Position numbers and translations under genes: made by a program. From an uncultured Alphaproteobacteria bacterium (GTDB lineage Bacteria > Pseudomonadota > Alphaproteobacteria > RF32 > CAG-239): a DNA stretch of 64,000 bases. The notes below the pieces were generated by a model. It ran no database searches. It worked only from the letters and a program-made list of their open reading frames with translations, and was not told the DNA's origin. Of the stretch, positions 1-56,880 are shown in pieces; position 1 is the stretch's first letter; each line of letters starts with the position of its first letter. Where the stretch lies: positions 1-64,000 of the forward strand of contig CALXPT010000002.1 of assembly GCA_944390355.1 (NCBI GenBank), given 5' to 3'.

Positions 1-431
1 AATGGCGGTTCGCAGGTCTTGTAATCACTCGGACAGTCCTGTACGCATTCGGCAAAATATTTGTTATCTAACGGACAAAACTTGCTCGGCGTATAATTCT
101 CGGGGCAAGAGGTTTTGTCATAGCCCATTTTGATGCAGTTTTCACCAGCCCCAGGGGGAAGAACGTCCGGTGTGCCACCTTCTAAATCCGTACCGACAAA
201 ATCCGCCCCGCCGCAATCTTTGGTATCCGTAATAAAGCAAACCTGCGCAACCTTAATCTCTTGCCGCGCACTAAAACTCGGCGGAGACAAGTAAACTTCA
301 GAAAAGAGGTGTGTGTGAAGTGTGTGAACAAATGTAATTTTTTCTGAAGGAAGGGAAATACCGGCTCTCACATCCGGCACAAAAATCGCAACCGAAGATA
401 ACAGCCCAAACAATAAATAAACCTTGTTCAT
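1..431 (-). CDS. Secreted Cys-rich surface protein, 3' part outside window
   Basis: The start ATG is at 429-431, preceded by AAAGGA eight bases upstream; the gene runs off the left edge after about 143 codons. It begins with a signal peptide (MNKVYLLFGLLSS...). Next comes a segment shared with the proteins at 34938 and 55928 (core KVAQVCFITDT, then a Cys-Gly-Gly motif, then a Cys-containing region ending near FCPLD). From 66 leftward-to-start, the DNA is nearly identical to 56411-56776, so the two genes are recent duplicates or have undergone gene conversion. The partners suggest a Cys-rich exported protein, perhaps with a C-terminal DUF1566-like domain, but that part is not visible here. No enzymatic function is recognised; a surface or adhesive role is inference. 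Confidence 0.75.
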   Translation of the reverse strand, partial: MNKVYLLFGLLSSVAIFVPDVRAGISLPSEKITFVHTLHTHLFSEVYLSPPSFSARQEIKVAQVCFITDTKDCGGADFVGTDLEGGTPDVLPPGAGENCIKMGYDKTSCPENYTPSKFCPLDNKYFAECVQDCPSDYKTCEPP

Positions 432-535
432 GATAAAAGTCCTTTCGATATTACTTATCTCCACGACTCGTATTATACCACAAGAAAAAAATCCTTTCAA
501 TAGAAATTTTCGAGGCTGGACAAGGCTTTGCACGA
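66..535 (-). repeat. Long direct repeat, copy 1 (with 56411-56880)
   Basis: The 470 bp here align without gaps to 56411-56880 at an offset of 56345, with roughly 18 mismatches counted by eye (about 96% identity). Both copies lie on the minus strand and cover the promoter, leader and 5' coding part of the Cys-rich surface genes. Most mismatches fall in the coding part; the promoter has almost none. Confidence 0.85.
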
Positions 536-4263: not shown

Positions 4264-5391
4264 TTAATAAATTTGTGTATATTGTCCTTTTTGACGGATA
4301 TAAATACTATAATGGAACAGATGCTGCGGCACGCCGTCATCAAAGCCGATATTCCCCCACGGGAAAGAGGTTGTACCGCTTTTAATCGCTTGCACGACTT
4401 TGGCATAGTCAAAGGAGGCCGCTTTTTTAACGAGAGCTTCCCAGAATTTAACCGATAAATAGCCATACATTCCGAGTCCCTCAGGTTCAAGACCTTTAAG
4501 ACGTAAATTAACGATAGTCTCGGCCATTTCGGGCAAATCTTCCATCGAATGCAATCCGAGATAAAAAATCGTATCGGCATAACGCCCCATAATTTCGTCA
4601 TAATCTTGTTGAGCTTTATATTTGTTGGCAAATATGGGAAAGTGAACATTTTCGCTTTTAATCAGGCTGGCGACTTCGGCGGTTTGCTGCGGTGTACCCA
4701 AAATATAAGCGACTTCGTTTTTTTCCTCCAAAACCTTATCGACCAAGTCATCATAGTCATCATCAAAAGAAGCGTAATTATAAGCTTTTATGTACTCAAT
4801 TTCATCATGAGATTTAAATTCTTGTTGAATGGCATAAGCCAAATCGACCAAATCGCGGCTCAAACTGTCATAAATCAAAGCGACCTGCTTGCCGTCAAAC
4901 AAGCGTTTGTAAAAATGATAAAAATCTTCGCTTTGGCGTTCTTTATAACCGGCAAGTTTAATCAACCCCTCGGGAGAAGATTCACTGCTTTGGGGTTTAG
5001 AAACGGCAACCGGAACGATTTGAATAATTTTAGCCTTGGAATAAATTTCACTGACCGCTTGCAAATTATTGGAGCAATAAGGTCCGATAATCAAAGATAT
5101 TTTGTCTTTGTCGGAACTATTTTGCGCAAGCATATTGGCAACGGTCAACGCACCGGAATCATCACAAGGGTCATTAACCGTAATCATGTTGATTTCCTGC
5201 CCGTTCAGCCCGCCGTCATGGTTGATAAGCTCAACGGCACTTTGCACGCCTTGAACGATTTGTTCGCCGAAAATTTTATATTCACCGTCCAAAGGAACAA
5301 CCACGGCCACATTAACGGCCGCATAAACAAATTGCGGCCAAAAAAACATCACGCTCCACAAAGCGAATTTCCGAAAATTTTTCAAAGTCAA
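4264..5391 (-). CDS. LivK-type periplasmic binding protein (Peripla_BP_6)
   Basis: The 375-residue protein starts with a signal peptide ending near VYAAVN. Two alternating alpha/beta lobes of the type I periplasmic-binding fold follow, with family wording such as VVVPLDGEYKIFGEQIVQG and INHDGGLNGQEI, and a YGYLSVKFWEALV stretch near the C-terminus. Such proteins bind branched-chain amino acids, amides or related small ligands for an ABC importer. No ABC permease or ATPase gene lies beside it, so it may serve a distant transporter or act as a sensor. The ligand cannot be read from the sequence. Confidence 0.8.
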   Translation of the reverse strand: MTLKNFRKFALWSVMFFWPQFVYAAVNVAVVVPLDGEYKIFGEQIVQGVQSAVELINHDGGLNGQEINMITVNDPCDDSGALTVANMLAQNSSDKDKISLIIGPYCSNNLQAVSEIYSKAKIIQIVPVAVSKPQSSESSPEGLIKLAGYKERQSEDFYHFYKRLFDGKQVALIYDSLSRDLVDLAYAIQQEFKSHDEIEYIKAYNYASFDDDYDDLVDKVLEEKNEVAYILGTPQQTAEVASLIKSENVHFPIFANKYKAQQDYDEIMGRYADTIFYLGLHSMEDLPEMAETIVNLRLKGLEPEGLGMYGYLSVKFWEALVKKAASFDYAKVVQAIKSGTTSFPWGNIGFDDGVPQHLFHYSIYIRQKGQYTQIY

Positions 5392-26209: not shown

Positions 26210-26284
26210 GGTCCCATCGTCTAATGGTTAGGACATCACCCTTTCACGGTGGTAATATGGGTTCAAGTCCCGTTGGGATCACCA
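26210..26284 (+). tRNA. tRNA-Glu (UUC)
   Basis: The 75-nt gene folds into a cloverleaf: acceptor GGTCCCA pairs with TGGGATC, the anticodon loop CTTTCAC gives anticodon TTC, the T-loop is GTTCAAG, and CCA is encoded. A hairpin terminator follows immediately. The gap from 26155 to 26501 holds this tRNA, two hairpins and the next promoter; no protein gene is seen. Confidence 0.97.
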
Positions 26285-26387: not shown

Positions 26388-26413
26388 AATCGCCTTAATC
26401 GGCGATTTTTTTT
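26388..26413 (+). terminator. Second hairpin terminator after tRNA-Glu
   Basis: AATCGCC (26388-26394) pairs with GGCGATT (26401-26407) with a six-base loop, followed by a T-run. Only 63 bp separate it from the tRNA terminator and no ORF lies between, so its transcript is unassigned: read-through backup or a very small RNA. Confidence 0.6.
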
Positions 26414-26428
26414 GCCCGCATAAAATAT

Positions 26429-26456
26429 TTGACAAATAAATGAAAAAGTGTATTTT
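26429..26456 (+). promoter_or_regulatory. Twin promoter, copy 1
   Basis: TTGACA (26429-26434), a 16-bp spacer and TATTTT (26451-26456) lie 45 bp before the start of the gene at 26502. The promoter and leader are almost the same as at 27485-27512, including the shared downstream string AACTATTATTGT. No Shine-Dalgarno precedes the ATG in either copy. Confidence 0.65.
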
Positions 26457-26501
26457 GATAGGCAATTAACTATTATTGTGTAACCCTAAAATTTTTATAT
26501 C

Positions 26502-27413
26502 ATGAAAACTATTATTAGAAAAGTTAAGGTCAAAAAAGTTGAGAAACACGATGATTACCAAGAGATTTTTTATGTGGAATTTTTAACGAGTTATCTTAAA
26601 TCCATTAAAATTTACAGTTTCAAAAAAGACATTGCGGCGATGCTGAAAAAATCTTTTTGGGGTAGGTGTAAGTCGGTTCTGGAAATTCATTCTTTGTGCT
26701 CCTTTCCGATTAAGGTTTATTTGGACGGGGAGTTGCTTTTGAACTTGGATGCGGAAAACTATCCGAAAAAACTTAAGCAGCTTATAAACGAAGAGAATGA
26801 ATTTAACCAAAATCTTCGTAAGCAATTTGAGGCTTTTTTGCCGAACTATCCTAAAAAAGACAATCTTGAAGCGGAGGTGTTTGCGCTTAACTCAATTTTG
26901 TTCAGAGCCTATGCCGGAGCAGTGCTTGAAAAGTTGACTGCATTGGGCAAAATCAGTGATGATTTGTGTCAGCGAAGATGTTCGTTATTGTTTGATTTGT
27001 TGAAATTTTTGGATGGCAATAAGGAATATCTATCAGCTCCTTTGTTGTGGCCGCCTATGTCGAATATAGAAGATTTTGGATGGTTGTGTTATCCAGAAAA
27101 TTTTCCGCAAATGTTGGCGCAAAAACTTGGTCTGGAAAAATTGCAAGGATTTGATAATCAGATACGAGTTTATTTAGCTTATTGGGCTGGAGAAGCTAAC
27201 GAACGGTTTCGTTCTGATGACAGGGGATTGTTTAGTTTTCTGTGTGAGCAGACAGGCATCTTTAGCGACAGGCAAGTGGATAGGCAACTTATTATTCAAT
27301 ATGATAAGCCGTTAGAAATCTGTCAGACTTGGGATGGCGTGCCGAATTTTTTGGTCGATGAGCCAATATCTGTGCCGGAGCTTAAGTGTTATCTTGCTAA
27401 GCAAAATTGGTGA
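26502..27413 (+). CDS. Unknown protein, twin-promoter gene 1
   Basis: The 303-residue protein has a basic N-terminus (MKTIIRKVKVKKVEKHDD), no signal peptide and no clear membrane helix; the later part is rich in Trp, Phe and Leu (LLWPPMSNIEDFGWLCYP; VYLAYWAGEANERF). I do not recognise a family. The gene has its own promoter, leader and terminator, and the next gene carries a near-copy of the promoter and leader, so the two are probably co-regulated. The start lacks a Shine-Dalgarno. Placement just after a tRNA suggests possible acquisition, but no integrase or repeated att site is seen. Confidence 0.65.
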   Translation: MKTIIRKVKVKKVEKHDDYQEIFYVEFLTSYLKSIKIYSFKKDIAAMLKKSFWGRCKSVLEIHSLCSFPIKVYLDGELLLNLDAENYPKKLKQLINEENEFNQNLRKQFEAFLPNYPKKDNLEAEVFALNSILFRAYAGAVLEKLTALGKISDDLCQRRCSLLFDLLKFLDGNKEYLSAPLLWPPMSNIEDFGWLCYPENFPQMLAQKLGLEKLQGFDNQIRVYLAYWAGEANERFRSDDRGLFSFLCEQTGIFSDRQVDRQLIIQYDKPLEICQTWDGVPNFLVDEPISVPELKCYLAKQNW

Positions 27414-27425
27414 ATGCCTTAATTT

Positions 27426-27473
27426 GAAAAAAAGCTGTGTTTGATAGGTATAACTATCGACACAGTTTTTTTA
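27426..27473 (+). terminator. Terminator of the gene at 26502
   Basis: A long two-part stem: AAAAAAAGCTGTGT against ACACAGTTTTTTT, with an inner TTGATAG/CTATCGA stem. It ends in seven T. Confidence 0.7.
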
Positions 27474-27484
27474 TATAAAAATAT

Positions 27485-27512
27485 TTGACAAATAAACAAA
27501 AAAGTGTATTCT
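27485..27512 (+). promoter_or_regulatory. Twin promoter, copy 2
   Basis: TTGACA (27485-27490), a 16-bp spacer and TATTCT (27507-27512) lie 43 bp before the ATG at 27556. The surrounding ~70 bp closely match copy 1 at 26429, although the downstream proteins share no obvious similarity. Confidence 0.65.
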
Positions 27513-27555
27513 AATGGCAATCAACTATTATTGTTTAACTTAAATTTTTGTGTAT

Positions 27556-28599
27556 ATGACAACATTTGTTTCATGGCGGTTTTCTCGTTTATCAAAAGGT
27601 GAAGCTTGGAAGAGAGCTTGTGATATTGAAGGCATCATATCTTTGTTATGTTTGCTGACAATAATGTTTTGTCTGCACTGGGGAACAATTCCTGGCAAAA
27701 CAGTGTATTGGTTTATGGTCGTTGTGGGTATAGGTTTTGCTTTGCTGATTTTGGACAAGGTGTTGGGAGCTGATGACTACTTTCAGGTTAAAACGATGAA
27801 TGGTCCTTGCAAAGTTTGGGTCTATGGCATTAATGGCGAGCGCATACAATATAAAATTGTTCTTAAAACCAAAGAATGGGAAAAAGTTTGTATTGCCAAT
27901 GCGTATGACCGAGGCATTTTTGCCGGAACAAAAGATGCATTCATCTTTAATCCTAATTTTGAGGGATTTTCCGATGCGTGGCGTTTTGTCGGAGAAGATT
28001 TTTCATCCGTGGAAACTATCGGTGTTCGGGTGAGCAAATATGTTTTTGCTGATTTGATACAAGATGAAGGCAAAATTACGCTGAATCTTCTGAACGGAAA
28101 TGGCATTAAAACCGTATCTGTTGATAGCTATGTTGCGGATAACATTTATGTTACAAGTGATGTATTTCTGAGCCCTGCTGATGATGGCGATGAACGTGGA
28201 TTTTGGGTTTATAATATTCATGATTTTTTAATCATGAAAAACGGCGGGCATTATTCCGTTTTGGGATTTGAGCAAAAGCCAAAACAAAATCCTAAATGTA
28301 TTGAGGTGAAAGTGCCGTCCATGGTCTTTCATGAAGGTAATGAAACGGTTATTCTGGCTTATGACGATGATAAGAAAGATTACCTAGAAATTTATCGAGG
28401 TATTGCCTTAGGGCGAAAGTCATCAACGCTGATTATTGAACAGATGAAAAAAAACGGGTTTGATGCTTTATACGGTCGAGTGCGCCGTTTTGACCCTGAA
28501 ACAAAAAAACTCAAAACGCTTTACGAAGGGGCTTTCACTGCTATCAATTTTGAAAACAGCGAGGTGCTGACAGCGGACGGACAAGAGTTTAAGCCTTGA
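27556..28599 (+). CDS. Unknown membrane-anchored protein, twin-promoter gene 2
   Basis: The 347-residue protein has two N-terminal membrane helices (residues ~26-43 and ~48-66: ISLLCLLTIMFCLHW; YWFMVVVGIGFALLIL) and then a soluble domain of about 275 residues rich in beta-strand-like, charged segments. It is not recognised. The ATG at 27556 is preferred over GTG at 27550 because it matches the leader geometry of the twin gene at 26502. The short N-terminus before the helix pair and the large C-terminal domain predict a cytoplasmic-facing body. It ends in its own terminator. Confidence 0.7.
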   Translation: MTTFVSWRFSRLSKGEAWKRACDIEGIISLLCLLTIMFCLHWGTIPGKTVYWFMVVVGIGFALLILDKVLGADDYFQVKTMNGPCKVWVYGINGERIQYKIVLKTKEWEKVCIANAYDRGIFAGTKDAFIFNPNFEGFSDAWRFVGEDFSSVETIGVRVSKYVFADLIQDEGKITLNLLNGNGIKTVSVDSYVADNIYVTSDVFLSPADDGDERGFWVYNIHDFLIMKNGGHYSVLGFEQKPKQNPKCIEVKVPSMVFHEGNETVILAYDDDKKDYLEIYRGIALGRKSSTLIIEQMKKNGFDALYGRVRRFDPETKKLKTLYEGAFTAINFENSEVLTADGQEFKP

Positions 28600-28618: not shown

Positions 28619-28650
28619 AAAAAAAGTCGACGATGTGTCGGCTTTTTTTT
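28619..28650 (+). terminator. Terminator of the gene at 27556
   Basis: AAAAAAAGTCGAC pairs with GTCGGCTTTTTTTT around a five-base loop (GATGT). Confidence 0.75.
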
Positions 28651-28727: not shown

Positions 28728-29345
28728 ATGCTGAAAATTATTTTATCTATCGTTGTTTTGGGTGCAATTATTGGGGCAGGTGTCGGCGGCGTACATCTTT
28801 ATAAAGTCGCACAACGCAATGCCGAAGAAATGGCTCCGTTTGAAGGAAAAGACGTTGTCGCTCGTCGGCTTCCGGGGCGGACGCTGATTGTTTATTATTC
28901 TCTGAGCGGACATACCAAAGATATTGCCGAGCGGATTCAAAAAATGACCGGCGGTGAGCTTTATGAAGTAAAAACCGCTGAGAAGATAAAACAAACACCT
29001 TGGTTCTATCTGACACTCAGAAAGCAACTTAAAGATAAAAATTATCCCAAGTTGAGTGGCTCTTTGCCTGATTTTCGCCAATATGACACGATTTTTGTCG
29101 GCGGGCCGGTTTGGTGGTATACCGCATCAACTCCGATGCGGGCTTTTTTGCAACAAGCCGATTTTAAGGGTAAAAAAGTTGTTCCGTTTACAACGCAAGG
29201 CAGTAATGTCGGAACTTATTTTGAAGATTTTGCGCAAATGGCTAAAAATGCCAAACTCCTCAAAAGCGCGTCTTTTAACAATATGCCCGAAAAGTACGAC
29301 CATGCGGTTGATAACAAAATCGCAACTTGGATTAATTCTTTATAA
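28728..29345 (+). CDS. Membrane-anchored flavodoxin, copy 1
   Basis: A GGGGAGGG site five bases upstream fixes the ATG at 28728 and gives 205 residues. One N-terminal membrane helix (residues ~3-20) is followed by a flavodoxin fold: the phosphate-binding loop YYSLSGHTKDIAE, then FVGGPVWWYTASTPM around the isoalloxazine ring, and a late FTTQGSNVG loop. It should bind FMN and act as a one-electron carrier or NAD(P)H oxidoreductase facing the cytoplasm. The next gene is a close paralogue, so the pair arose by tandem duplication. Confidence 0.85.
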   Translation: MLKIILSIVVLGAIIGAGVGGVHLYKVAQRNAEEMAPFEGKDVVARRLPGRTLIVYYSLSGHTKDIAERIQKMTGGELYEVKTAEKIKQTPWFYLTLRKQLKDKNYPKLSGSLPDFRQYDTIFVGGPVWWYTASTPMRAFLQQADFKGKKVVPFTTQGSNVGTYFEDFAQMAKNAKLLKSASFNNMPEKYDHAVDNKIATWINSL

Positions 29346-29517: not shown

Positions 29518-30135
29518 ATGTTAAAATTTTTGGGATACTTTGTCGTAACCGTTGCCGTTTTAGGCTTCGGATTTGCATACTATCACAATCATAAAGTTTC
29601 AAAAATGAACGAAATTGAAATGTCTCGGTACGACACGCCCGAAAAATATAAAAATCATCTAAAAGGCAAAACATTGGTCATATATTATTCTTTAAGTAAG
29701 CATACCCAAAAAATAGCCGAGAAGATACAAGAGTTAACGGGGGCAGATATCTATGAGATTGAAACCGAAGAACCGATAAAACACAATCTAATGGCTTATT
29801 GGAAGATTCGCCAACAGCTAAAAAAGAAAAACTATCCAAAGTTAAAAGAGAAAGCACCGGATTTGAGTAAATATACAACGATTATAATCGGCGGACCTGT
29901 GTGGTGGTATACGGTAGCAACCCCGATGATTTCATTTTTGAATGAGGCCGATTTTAAAGGCAAAAAAGTTGCGGTATTTTCAACACAAAGCAGTAATTAT
30001 GGGCGTTATTTTGAAGATTTTAAAAGCTTTGCAAAGCATGCGGATATAAAAACGACAATATCGTTTAATAACACGCCAGAAAAATATTCACAAGCAGAGG
30101 AAAATAAATTAATAAACTGGTTGAATAAAATCTAA
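29518..30135 (+). CDS. Membrane-anchored flavodoxin, copy 2
   Basis: The start follows AAAGGAG six bases upstream. At 205 residues it is the same length as the preceding gene and has the same layout: N-terminal membrane helix (~3-20), YYSLSKHTQKIAEKI loop, IIGGPVWWYTVATPM, and FSTQSSNYGRYFEDF. The phosphate loop differs (SLSK for SLSG). The two copies are diverged enough to be old duplicates. Each has its own terminator, so they may be separately regulated. Partner proteins are not evident. Confidence 0.85.
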   Translation: MLKFLGYFVVTVAVLGFGFAYYHNHKVSKMNEIEMSRYDTPEKYKNHLKGKTLVIYYSLSKHTQKIAEKIQELTGADIYEIETEEPIKHNLMAYWKIRQQLKKKNYPKLKEKAPDLSKYTTIIIGGPVWWYTVATPMISFLNEADFKGKKVAVFSTQSSNYGRYFEDFKSFAKHADIKTTISFNNTPEKYSQAEENKLINWLNKI

Positions 30136-34937: not shown

Positions 34938-36527
34938 ATGATGAAAAAGGGTTGCCTTTTGCTGTGTGCAACAGCATTAAGCTTGGCTTGGTTGGATAAT
35001 CAAGCTCAAGCATCAATTGGTTTTAATCTGAAAGCACCTCCAGTTCCGAGCTATGCTAAATTACACACATCACACACTTCACACCTCATGGCTCGACATT
35101 TGTCTTCGCCGAGTTTTAGCGAGCGGCCGGAGGTTAAGGTTGCGCAGGTGTGCTTTATCACCGATACCGAAGATTGCGGCGGGGCGGACTTTGTCGGCAC
35201 CGATGGGACGACAGGGACACCGCCTGAGATTCTTCCTCCGGGGGGTGATGATTATAAAGAAAGCTGTACCGAAATGGGCTATGGCAAAACCTCATGCCCG
35301 ACAGGGTATAAACCAAACAAATTCTGCCCGTTAGATAACAAATATTTTGCCGAATGTGTGCAAGATTGCCCAACCGGTTGTAAAGAATGTGAAGAGCATT
35401 ATACCGGTATCGGTGAAGAATGCTGCCCCGGAAAATATATGGAATGCGAATGTAATGAGTGTAAAGGTTATGATTACACCGAAAACAATATTCCTGCTGG
35501 TTATATCAAAGGAGAATCTTGCGAATCTTGCAATGGTTGGAAATACAAAATCATTCCAAATCCCTGTACCGGATTTTTAGACTGTGATGGAAAATGTGCT
35601 ACCGGTTCAAAAACGTGTTTGTCCGGTGATAAAACCATGTGTGAAAAATGCCCGCCTTGTCCGAATGCCTGTACTTTAGCCGAATGTCCAGCCAATGCCG
35701 TTTGTGATAAAGAAGAATGCTCAGGCAAGTATTGCCGTACGGGGTGCGTGGATGGTTATGAGTGGGATAATGCTTCGCAGAGCTGTAAAAAGAAATGTGA
35801 AAACAAATGTTCATTATCCTCTTGTCCGGCCAATGCCATTTGTGAAAAAGAAGAATGCTCAGGCAGATATTGTCTTATAGATTGTGTGGAAGGGTATGAA
35901 TTAAAAAATAATAGTTGCGAGCCTAACAGAGCCACATGGGGCCAATGTACAGGTTATGCTGCTTATTGTGAAATTGGTGATATTGTTTATAGTGACGGAA
36001 TCTGTAACGGAAATATTGTTTCAGGAAAAACACCGATCGCTGTAGTTGTCTATAAGTCGGGCAATTGTGCTCAAGCGTTGGCATTAGCTCCAAGTACAGC
36101 AGGAAAATGGGCGCAAAAAAGAACAACGCTAGTTACGAGTTTACCTTATGTAGAAGACTGGGATGCAGCAGCAGCAGATGTTGGTAGCTGTGCTAATAGT
36201 AAAAAACTCTTGGCAGAAGGCGACGCTACAAAGTTCCCTGCAGTTTGGGCAGCACATAATTATAGTACGGCAGGAACAAAAGTTGGTGATTGGTGCTTAC
36301 CTGCAGCCGGAATCTTTACATCATACTATAATGAGCAAAATGCTGTAAACGCAGGATTAGCACGAGCCAATGGTGTTCCAATTACGGAACATGAATATAA
36401 TAAAACTTGGTCATCCACCTTATGGAGTGAATATAATGCTTGGTTAGGTTATTTTTACCAAGGTGATGGCTTGCGTTATGAATCAAAAGATGATGTATTC
36501 CTTGTACGTCCAGTACTTGAATTCTAA
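34938..36527 (+). CDS. Secreted Cys-rich surface protein with DUF1566-like C-terminal domain
   Basis: The 529-residue protein starts with a signal peptide (MMKKGCLLLCATALSLAWL...AQA); GAGGTG precedes the paired ATG codons at 34938 and 34941, and the second has the better spacing. A segment shared with the proteins at 1 and 55928 follows (KVAQVCFITDTEDCGGADF). Next come Cys-rich modules including two tandem 46-residue units beginning near 245 and 291 (PANAVCDKEECSGKYC; PANAICEKEECSGRYC). The C-terminal ~195 residues (IGDIVYSDG ... GDWCLPAAG ... VFLVRPVLEF) resemble DUF1566/Lcl-like domains. About one residue in ten is Cys in the middle, implying disulfides outside the cytoplasm. A surface or adhesive role is inference. 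Confidence 0.85.
   Translation: MMKKGCLLLCATALSLAWLDNQAQASIGFNLKAPPVPSYAKLHTSHTSHLMARHLSSPSFSERPEVKVAQVCFITDTEDCGGADFVGTDGTTGTPPEILPPGGDDYKESCTEMGYGKTSCPTGYKPNKFCPLDNKYFAECVQDCPTGCKECEEHYTGIGEECCPGKYMECECNECKGYDYTENNIPAGYIKGESCESCNGWKYKIIPNPCTGFLDCDGKCATGSKTCLSGDKTMCEKCPPCPNACTLAECPANAVCDKEECSGKYCRTGCVDGYEWDNASQSCKKKCENKCSLSSCPANAICEKEECSGRYCLIDCVEGYELKNNSCEPNRATWGQCTGYAAYCEIGDIVYSDGICNGNIVSGKTPIAVVVYKSGNCAQALALAPSTAGKWAQKRTTLVTSLPYVEDWDAAAADVGSCANSKKLLAEGDATKFPAVWAAHNYSTAGTKVGDWCLPAAGIFTSYYNEQNAVNAGLARANGVPITEHEYNKTWSSTLWSEYNAWLGYFYQGDGLRYESKDDVFLVRPVLEF
35670..35931 (+). repeat. Tandem 138-bp Cys-rich coding repeat
   Basis: Two in-frame units, at 35670 and 35808, each encode about 46 residues with the same Cys spacing and the shared stretch PANA-C-KEECSG-YC. 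Such repeats can change in number by slippage or recombination. Confidence 0.7.
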
Positions 36528-54954: not shown

Positions 54955-55821
54955 CTAAAAAGCTAGGACTGGACGAACGTAATAGTCGTCATGCTTATAG
55001 TATTCGATCACATAATCAAGCCCATTACCATCAGTGAAGTACACCCTCCAAGCCTCGCTACTAGAAAGCTCGGAAGAAGACCAATGCATATCTGACGGTA
55101 GTTTTGTTCCGCCAATTTTCCCTAAAGCCGTGTTCAAAACACCCTTATTACCATATATGGCAATCAACTCTCCTACCGCTGGCAAATACCAATCTCCCGC
55201 TTTTGTTCCTACCGTTTGATAGCTATTCACATATTCAAATGCAGGACAACTTTTCCCATTCGTCTTGCAATATTCCAACACTAAACGCGTATTATGTTTA
55301 CCTTGCCAATCTGCTGTTACCGCTGATGATAAACTATAATGTGATAATGTCGGTACACCAAAATGTTCATCCGACCATGCTTTCTCTGCCGTATCCAACG
55401 CTATCGCTAAACGATTCCCTCGATCAAACACAACGCCGATTGGCGTTTTGCCTTTAACGACATCGAAACTACAACTCTTATCAGAATACAAGATATCGCC
55501 GATTATACAATTACTCGACGATGCTCCGCTTTCTATCGTTACAATTTTTTCCTCTATTGTTGTTATTTTATTGGTAATTTCCGTTATCTTATTCGTTTGT
55601 TCGGTTATTTTATTGGTTAGCTCCGTTATTTGAGTGCTTAAATCGCTTGCCGTACAGTTCCAAGCGTTGCCAAACGGGCATTTAACCCCTCCCGAACAAG
55701 AAGAACTTGAGGTATAACCCAAGCTTGAACAAGTCGGAGTTTGAATACACGCTGCATTTGCCGCCCCGCCGCTCATCGTAAAAGCCACCAAAATTGTTGA
55801 ATATAATAAAAACTTTCTCAT
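54955..55821 (-). CDS. Secreted coiled-coil protein with DUF1566-like C-terminal domain
   Basis: AGGAGAAAG upstream fixes the ATG at 55821; the longer frame to 55884 is rejected. The 288-residue protein has a signal peptide (MRKFLLYSTILVAF...AANA), a small Cys-rich stretch (CIQTPTCSSLGYTSSSSC), a coiled coil made of heptad-like repeats (TELTNKI, TEQTNKI, TEITNKI; residues ~62-95), and a C-terminal domain (IGDILYSDKSC ... GDWYLPAVGELIAIYG ... DYYVRPVLAF) homologous to the end of the protein at 34938. It sits 106 bp after the Cys-rich gene at 55928 on the same strand. Surface attachment by a trimeric coiled coil is inference. Confidence 0.8.
   Translation of the reverse strand: MRKFLLYSTILVAFTMSGGAANAACIQTPTCSSLGYTSSSSCSGGVKCPFGNAWNCTASDLSTQITELTNKITEQTNKITEITNKITTIEEKIVTIESGASSSNCIIGDILYSDKSCSFDVVKGKTPIGVVFDRGNRLAIALDTAEKAWSDEHFGVPTLSHYSLSSAVTADWQGKHNTRLVLEYCKTNGKSCPAFEYVNSYQTVGTKAGDWYLPAVGELIAIYGNKGVLNTALGKIGGTKLPSDMHWSSSELSSSEAWRVYFTDGNGLDYVIEYYKHDDYYVRPVLAF
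55541..55633 (-). repeat. Tandem 21-bp repeats coding for coiled coil
   Basis: At least three close 21-bp units (starting 55562, 55583 and 55604) plus diverged flanking units encode seven-residue repeats of the pattern TNKITE-. Copy number changes would lengthen or shorten the coiled coil in frame. Confidence 0.7.
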
Positions 55822-55927
55822 TTTCTTTCTCCTGTAGGCGGGGTCTACCGCCATCAATTTTGCATTGTGCCCAGACCGCCGCATTGTTAATAATTATGGT
55901 TATTTTTCCCTCTCTCTTGACTTTGAA

Positions 55928-56776
55928 CTATTGTTCAAAAGCACAATAGTCGCACCAGTCGGTACAACCAGACTTACAGCCGGTTACGATGTATAAATTC
56001 GAGCATTCTTCAAACGTGCAGACCGAGCACGGCGGGCATTCACTCTCCGTTCCCAAATTCGGACAAGACGGACAGGCCTCACATAAAACCTTGTTCCCCG
56101 ACAGACAGCTGTCCGCTCCCGTGGCGCAATCACCACCGCAGTCAATAAATCCCGTACAGTCTTTCTCTTTGATTTTGTATTTTTCCTTGATTTTCAATCC
56201 GCCCTCGTCGCATTCCTCACAAGGCGCACCATCGGCCTCATAACCGGCCGGAATTTCATCTAAGCTATATTGATATTCCGAGGAACAAGTCGGCGTACAG
56301 CAATCTTGATACAAACCGTCGCCGCAAACCTCGCCGACACCTTGCTGTGGTGATTGGCAAGTTTTATAACTACTCGGACAGTCAGACAAACACTCCGCAA
56401 AGTAGGAACTATCTAACGGACAAAACTTGCTCGGCGTATAATTCTCGGGGCAAGAGGTTTTGTCATAGCCCATTTTGATGCAGTTTTCACCAGCCCCAGG
56501 GGGAAGAACGTCCGGTGTGCCACCTTCTAAATCCGTACCGACAAAATCCGCGCCCCCGCAATCTTCGGTATCGGTAATAAAGCAAACCTGCGCAACCTTG
56601 ATTTCTTGCCGCTCCCTAAAACTCTCGGGAGACAAGTAAACTTCAGAAAAGAGGTGTGTGTGAAGTGTGTGAACAAATGTAATTTTTTCTGAAGGAAGGG
56701 AAATATCGGCTCTCACGTCCGGCGCAAAAATCGCAACCGAAGATAATAGCCCAAACAACAAATAAACCTTGTTCAT
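55928..56776 (-). CDS. Secreted Cys-rich surface protein without C-terminal domain
   Basis: AAAGGA eight bases upstream fixes the ATG at 56776; the in-frame extension to 56878 overlaps the promoter and is rejected. The 282-residue protein has the same signal peptide as the gene at 1-431 (MNKVYLLFGLLSSVAIF), the shared segment KVAQVCFITDTEDCGGADF, several Cys-rich modules and ends at CDYCAFEQ. Compared with the protein at 34938 it stops after one Cys module and lacks the DUF1566-like part, which is instead carried by the next gene downstream. This looks like domain fission or a module swap. The function is unknown. Confidence 0.85.
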   Translation of the reverse strand: MNKVYLLFGLLSSVAIFAPDVRADISLPSEKITFVHTLHTHLFSEVYLSPESFRERQEIKVAQVCFITDTEDCGGADFVGTDLEGGTPDVLPPGAGENCIKMGYDKTSCPENYTPSKFCPLDSSYFAECLSDCPSSYKTCQSPQQGVGEVCGDGLYQDCCTPTCSSEYQYSLDEIPAGYEADGAPCEECDEGGLKIKEKYKIKEKDCTGFIDCGGDCATGADSCLSGNKVLCEACPSCPNLGTESECPPCSVCTFEECSNLYIVTGCKSGCTDWCDYCAFEQ

Positions 56777-56880
56777 GATAAAAGTCCTTTCGATATTACT
56801 TATCTCCACGACTCGTATTATACCACAAGAAAAAAATCCTTTCAATAGAAATTTTTGAGGCTGGACAAGGCTTTGCACGA
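56411..56880 (-). repeat. Long direct repeat, copy 2 (with 66-535)
   Basis: Gap-free match to 66-535, about 96% identical by eye, same orientation, 56.3 kb apart. Recombination between the two would excise almost the whole window. Confidence 0.85.

Follow-up and report, generated by a model that had tools for sequence, protein, structure and literature searches.

A promoter-leader without a Shine-Dalgarno sequence precedes unrelated genes in an uncultured alphaproteobacterial family and may mark a regulon

Effector or surface-protein regulons can be marked by one cis-motif, as with the PmrA boxes of Legionella, and protein S1 has a role in translation initiation without a Shine-Dalgarno (SD) sequence. 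Genes that lack an SD sequence show less structure around the start, as the excerpted text of one report has it (PMC5397173). In Borrelia burgdorferi, the UHB/erp system places one conserved promoter region before different surface proteins at many loci, which are co-expressed according to the excerpted text of two reports (PMC7002432, PMC9112904). According to the excerpt of the second, this system is carried by cp32 prophage plasmids and is controlled through a stretch of some 145 bp on the 5' side of the start site, to which BpaB, BpuR and EbfC bind (PMC9112904). Here, we describe a promoter-leader without an SD sequence that stands before unrelated proteins at many loci of an uncultured alphaproteobacterial genome.

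The locus lies in the window, the whole 64,000-nucleotide stretch of DNA that was analysed, and all of its parts are on the + strand. A tRNA-Glu (TTC) gene at 26210-26284, detected by ARAGORN and Rfam, is the 5' neighbour of promoter 1, and the interval between them contains a terminator-like hairpin (26388-26407; pattern scan and folding). Promoter 1 (26429-26456; TTGACA, 16 nt, TATTTT) is followed by leader 1 (26457-26501), which is SD-less and carries the core ATTATTGTGTAAC at 26472-26484, 30 nt from core start to ATG. Gene 1 (26502-27413) encodes a soluble orphan of 303 aa and is closed by a hairpin and T-run at 27428-27472 (-21.7 kcal/mol, z -7.15). Promoter 2 (27485-27512; TTGACA, 16 nt, TATTCT) and the SD-less leader 2 (27513-27555; core ATTATTGTTTAAC at 27527-27539, 29 nt from core start to ATG) precede gene 2 (27556-28599), a membrane-protein orphan of 347 aa with an SWR..R.....AWK-type N-terminus, a helical hairpin and a beta-rich remainder. 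Its terminator, again a hairpin and T-run, lies at 28619-28649 (-14.6 kcal/mol, z -3.23). For gene 2, the ATG at 27556 is most likely the better start than the GTG at 27550, because it fits the leader spacing. The whole-unit model R3 and the leader-only model R2, both introduced below, matched 26428-26504 (44.9 bits) and 26460-26499 at the first unit, and 27484-27558 (44.4 bits) and 27516-27552 at the second. The string AACTATTATTGT, at 26468 and 27523, has its sole two exact genome-wide copies here.

A sequence-only reading of this DNA had proposed near-copy upstream regions with 16-nt promoter spacers, missing SD sequences, unrelated products and a terminator for each gene, and these proposals were borne out. 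Over 75 nt, the upstream regions share 87% identity (E 3.4e-18). Between 26280 and 28720, no promoter-like site on the + strand scores better than the two TTGACA promoters (10/12 letters). No SD sequence of at least 3 nt was found before gene 1 or gene 2, the two proteins fell into separate BLASTP clusters, and folding gave each gene its own hairpin with T-run, the pattern scan having listed only 26388-26407. Zero hydrophobic segments were predicted for gene 1 and two for gene 2, as expected of the soluble and two-helix products that had been claimed. Neither protein belongs to a Pfam or NCBIfam family. The structure prediction that had been recommended for both was informative only in part: the helical hairpin of gene 2 is visible at residues 24-70, and the AlphaFold models (gene 1, from one sequence, pLDDT 37.6; gene 2, from two sequences, a poor pLDDT of 41.6 overall) are too poor for fold comparison. 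A PDB profile search returned no match for gene 1 and, for gene 2, best matches of only E 0.12-0.73. Downstream of the locus, 28728-29345 and 29518-30135 encode tandem Flavodoxin_4 proteins that are 50% identical.

Searching with the upstream region of gene 1 revealed a third, weaker promoter-leader copy on another contig of the same genome (C12), before a third unrelated protein, a two-helix membrane protein of 143 aa adjoining rpsL. This copy changed the picture from a twin to a wider set: the resemblance of the two promoter-leaders is real, and what had been read as a pair is not private, being two of about thirty copies. The leader was also found before a gene-1 paralogue on contig C32 of the same genome (44% identity) and before gene-2 relatives in genomes G002, G007 and G013, one G013 copy carrying it only in part. 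Further gene-1 homologues occur in genus g40, and gene-2 homologues that bear the leader in genus g4, G002 and G007.

A sequence-only model, R1, was built from seven promoter-leaders (alignment A2, which took 7 of the 8 leaders of alignment A1). At E<=1, it matched 42 of 56 relatives; in the genus, all 11 genomes were matched, with best E from 2e-14 to 5e-3, and in the class outside the order 9 of 23 genomes were matched, none below E 0.08. Forty-two R1 matches were inspected, and the majority stop at the ATG of an ORF. From these, 11 matches, together with one of the first leaders, were removed manually because they were near-duplicates, short or poorly aligned. The 38 sequences kept gave 31 for alignment A3 and 32 for alignment A4, and served for the two further models, R2 (the leader only, without promoter and ATG) and R3 (the whole unit).

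In the 1.7-Mb own genome, R3 found 54 places at E<=1 and 30 at E<0.01; low-scoring R3 matches may be plain promoters. Twenty-nine of the 30 lead into an ORF of 60 aa or longer and the 30th is a 35-aa remnant; for two copies on C10 the script took a TTG start, and an ATG stands at the match end. The 29 proteins fell into 20 unrelated families by BLASTP clustering, done after removal of proteins shorter than 60 aa and of three weak places (L107, L129 and L130), so that the same promoter region stands before unrelated proteins at 30 places. Across the order, 67 of 83 sampled genomes had R3 matches at E<=0.001, with 1 to 24 per genome, most of them in genera g1, g4 and g40. R2, at E<=1, gave 29 matches in the own genome and 5-17 in each of 8 genomes of the same genus; outside the genus, one genome of the order gave 4 matches, all at E>=0.25, and three other genomes of the class gave 0, 0 and 1 (E 0.61). 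No description of the motif was found in the literature searched, and Rfam gave no match.

Viral sequences were searched as well. Promoter-leader 1 had no match in the phage collection. In viral contigs (L228-L246), 19 places have the exact 18-nt leader directly before an ATG, 16 of the 19 at one viral gene, and R3 scores the leader part at E<0.01 in 18 of the 19 contigs. None was seen with TTGACA at the spacing, and these copies are probably a coincidence.

The element has a fixed anatomy. A 13-nt core, ATTATTGTKTAAC, stands 29-30 nt before the ATG of both genes. Over 65 distinct sites, information content is 1.25-1.8 bits per column in ATTATTGT and in the AC of +11/+12, and 0.9-1.0 bits in the AA of +16/+17; TTGACA is visible, and the promoter spacer is mostly near 0 bits. 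G is nearly missing from core positions +10 to +21, and T stands directly 5' of the ATG in 57 of the 65 sites. Among 43 places, the distance from TTGACA to the core is 42-45 nt in 38/40 and that from core to ATG 27-32 nt in 39/41, spacings that are partly built in, since most sites came from R1 and R3, models that contain TTGACA and ATG. Exceptions in the own genome reach 34, 37 and 39 nt from core to ATG. When related pairs were compared, 5 of 143 core positions differed, as did 25 of 176 in the promoter spacer and 18 of 132 in the pre-ATG stretch; the comparison skipped 1 of 12 pairs and required at least 8/13 core and 5/6 TTGACA letters, and therefore favours the core and TTGACA columns.

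The leader-only model allowed the spacings to be measured on places outside its training, namely the 12 own-genome R2 matches at E<=0.1. TTGACA stood 42-45 nt before the core in 10/12, an ATG opening a frame of 60 aa or longer 27-34 nt after it in 11/12, and both at the spacing in 9/12. The corresponding rates were 2.7%, 3.3% and 0.12% at random positions, and 3.4%, 3.9% and 0.5% at AT-rich random positions. The set is not fully independent, since four of the 12 places, one on C2 and three on C9, have a paralogue among the training members.

An SD sequence of at least 4 nt was present in 0 of 17 leader genes, compared with 24 of 34 other window genes, the latter being a small control with starts picked by hand; the leader genes checked thus lack SD sequences while most of the other genes compared use them. 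The consensus fold of the leaders contained 0 predicted consensus base pairs, and a folded RNA leader was rejected for want of a conserved fold. Structure in the leader regions is only marginally weaker than at other starts (median MFE -4.2 vs -5.3). Rfam covariance models run over the window gave two tRNAs only at gathering score, and the best match below threshold (E 0.24) lies at the gene 2 terminator.

That one SD-less promoter-leader with fixed spacings precedes 20 unrelated families is best explained by a regulon signal. The explanation that we hold with somewhat more belief than doubt is a family-wide SD-less promoter-leader regulon, which would include genes 1 and 2 and whose core would act in the mRNA. 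The own genome would then contain about thirty single-gene units, with genes 1 and 2 as two members, each unit having a sigma70-like promoter, an untranslated leader of ~37-40 nt and, to judge from the window locus alone, its own terminator. The leader, of fixed layout, is A/U-rich, nearly devoid of G past the core and without a conserved fold. The core lies about 8-9 nt past the expected transcription start, and in most copies 28-31 nt separate it from the ATG. In the mRNA it may replace the SD sequence as a landing signal for the ribosome, and/or be bound by a trans-acting factor (a protein or a small RNA) that would switch the whole set together. The coding parts are lineage-specific and sometimes multiplied in tandem, with members gained and lost and the expression signal retained. 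The transcription start, the SD-independent initiation, the co-regulation and the trans-acting factor are all inferred from sequence. Action in the mRNA is favoured because the core keeps its distance to both ATG and promoter and stands where the SD sequence is missing. Core-to-ATG distances of 34, 37 and 39 nt speak against a landing signal, which should hardly tolerate such a stretch.

Since the core keeps as rigid a distance to the promoter as to the ATG, a DNA operator, on which a transcription factor would bind the first transcribed bases and control initiation, with the lack of an SD sequence as a side effect of the AT-rich site, fits nearly as well. It is the main alternative, and we regard it as a serious possibility, if not a likely one. 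The coupling of the core to the promoter at 42-45 nt (38/40 overall and 10/12 held out), the absence of a conserved fold and the core-to-ATG distances that extend to 34-39 nt all agree with an operator, as does the near-palindromic second half of the consensus, TTTAACTTAAA (10/11 letters), a symmetry that individual sites, leader 1 among them, do not retain. The most strongly conserved stretch, ATTATTGT, shows on the other hand no palindrome (the 18-nt consensus has 8/18 letters in register), and an operator gives no reason for the mostly fixed ATG distance or for the missing SD sequence in 17/17 genes. A CtrA-type TTAA-N7-TTAA site was also considered and was rejected, as the spacing does not fit.

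The products of the leader genes were then considered as a group. The Pfam cut-off was passed by 1 of 22 own leader proteins, 1 of 15 from other genomes and 8 of 14 other window proteins; the 7 of 29 own proteins outside the scan are each a paralogue of a scanned one, the 15 were chosen from 29 loci (L144-L172), and the 14 controls were picked by hand. The two positives are an Asp/Glu racemase (L123, own genome) and the OMP decarboxylase PyrF (L170, G027), which are ordinary enzymes, and the leader set is therefore not purely orphan. Hydrophobic segments were predicted in 12 of the 29 own leader proteins; one membrane-protein family has six members, five with five predicted segments and one with four. 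Three own leader proteins cluster and share a lectin-like tail (Lcl_C E 0.008, below the cut-off; phrog_4245 4e-8 for one).

The lectin-tail leader genes lie at L125 1885-2577 (-) and at L126 2750-3472 and 3603-4283 (-), the latter two in tandem. In the window, secreted-looking and partly Cys-rich proteins are encoded at 34938-36527 (+), 54955-55884 (-), 55928-56878 (-) and 1-533 (-), which we take to be possible targets of a diversity-generating retroelement. Those at 1-533 and 55928-56878 have near-identical N-termini, and those at 34938 and 54955 have lectin-like C-terminal tails (WSS...VRPVL.F).

Some leader genes stand in tandem, on C9, C10 and C19 of the own genome, as two gene-1 homologues in G114 and as three near-identical genes in G081 (C13). 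Tandem copies, and a leader that travels with the gene-1 and gene-2 families, are what would be expected if the promoter-leader had simply been copied with duplicating genes whose coding parts diverge faster, with no dedicated regulator. We consider such descent improbable: the promoter spacer and the first transcribed bases have drifted while the core and the spacings were kept, and the 20 families are unrelated, one of them a known enzyme. The leader on PyrF in G027 may moreover hint at independent acquisition by an old single-copy gene. The three near-identical tandem leader genes of L176 (1099-5333, -) encode an internal GYPFYxYxDGTCGK-like repeat and have relatives in L180 and L182.

It is very improbable that strongly expressed genes of the clade simply have this leader as their ordinary promoter and 5' UTR. 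Its hexamers do correspond to the sigma70 consensus, and PyrF and the racemase carry it; the mostly conserved 64-kb window, however, yields only two R2 sites (E 1e-7 and 2e-7; next best E 0.75), and the other window genes mostly have an SD sequence.

The distribution of genes 1 and 2 in relatives bears on their proposed partnership. Among 82 genomes of the family, the gene-1 profile matched 12, of which 4 strongly (8 places), and the gene-2 profile 13; both genes were strong in the own genome only (1/82), or present in 3/82 when weak, partial gene-1 matches are counted. Of the strong gene-1 places, 7 of 8 are preceded by the leader (in one case at E 0.09), as are 14 of the 18 gene-2 places (in one case at E 0.03); several of these leader-bearing places had been in training sets. 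The 18 include G007, but neither a remnant on C18 nor a further row for a G058 gene already counted. Each gene is inherited with its own leader and not with the other gene. The part of the sequence-only reading that saw accessory genes of unknown product is upheld, here under a common control signal, with gene 1 in 1/56 and gene 2 in 4/56 relatives. Relatives of the two genes sit near rpsB/tsf, and in G013, G081 and G099 gene 2 has an ABC-F ATPase on one side and DsbA-like genes on the other. Synteny, which had been suggested as a check, is retained in so far as gene 2 adjoins flavodoxin in G002, in a copy whose frame is interrupted by stop codons; the block itself is not kept together.

The tRNA neighbour, to which meaning had been attached, looks incidental, because no tRNA 12-mer recurs elsewhere in the window, as would mark a tRNA-integrated island, and because the relatives of both genes sit elsewhere. 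No integrase was noticed among the window ORFs read by eye. Gene 1 gave nothing in the genome-contig and viral-contig collections, nor did gene 2 in plasmids. Supposed viral relatives of gene 2, which have 39 residues in common with a short viral ORF, nothing beyond that and no leader, were attributed to chance. PADLOC gave no usable match (gene 1 best E 0.05, gene 2 none), and PADLOC, Pfam and NCBIfam placed neither product in a known family of defence proteins or toxins; either could still belong to an undescribed one. That genes 1 and 2 form a two-part module for defence, toxin/immunity or sensing beside a tRNA is hardly credible, even with adjacent, co-oriented genes for one soluble and one membrane product of no known family: no examined locus besides that of the window has both, the paralogues stand alone, and that the homologues are never side by side elsewhere argues against such a module.

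Several neighbourhoods of relatives were recorded in passing. On contig C18 of the own genome (L007, about 4328-4654), a gene-2 paralogue remnant with an in-frame stop adjoins an autotransporter-like gene, and by eye a resolvase-like serine recombinase (L038 1804-2394, -) lies just 5' of the decayed gene-2 copy of G002. A DNA-methylase-like gene and a partner ORF (L174 4240-5861, -; by eye) adjoin the gene-1 homologue of G109 and are perhaps a restriction-modification pair. A commoner family matches about residues 50-170 of gene 1 in eight genomes, one copy adjoining a flavodoxin gene in G008. R3 detected no leader at the weak gene-1 relatives L197 and L199.

We tentatively suggest that a private factor reads the 13-nt word in the SD-less leader, which would amount to a dedicated translational or post-transcriptional channel of this uncultured alphaproteobacterial family. 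If so, fast-turning lineage-specific proteins would be expressed as one programme, into which new genes are enrolled by gaining the leader. Dozens of unannotatable genes per genome would become a single testable set with one handle, and the leader would be a candidate for sequence-specific, SD-free control of the start in bacteria that otherwise use SD sequences.

Among the described systems, general non-SD initiation involves, to our knowledge, no gene-set-specific 13-nt word at a fixed distance, whereas in the present genome, which mostly uses SD sequences, a minority of genes carries such a specific word. The leader genes resemble those under PmrA boxes in being unlinked orphan genes, in single units, with one common control motif, but motifs of that type sit 5' of the promoter. 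With UHB, as the excerpted sources describe it, the present element shares the placement of the same promoter region before unlike proteins at many loci. It differs from UHB/erp in that the conserved core is downstream of the promoter, in the leader, that the members are scattered over many contigs, and that soluble and membrane proteins are mixed. Membership of the Borrelia system by descent finds no support in the alphaproteobacterial contigs, the leader proteins without Pfam families or the search of the phage collection, which gave no match for promoter-leader 1, a judgement made from these features. UHB/erp appears to be the closest parallel, alike in its working and with no sign of common descent.
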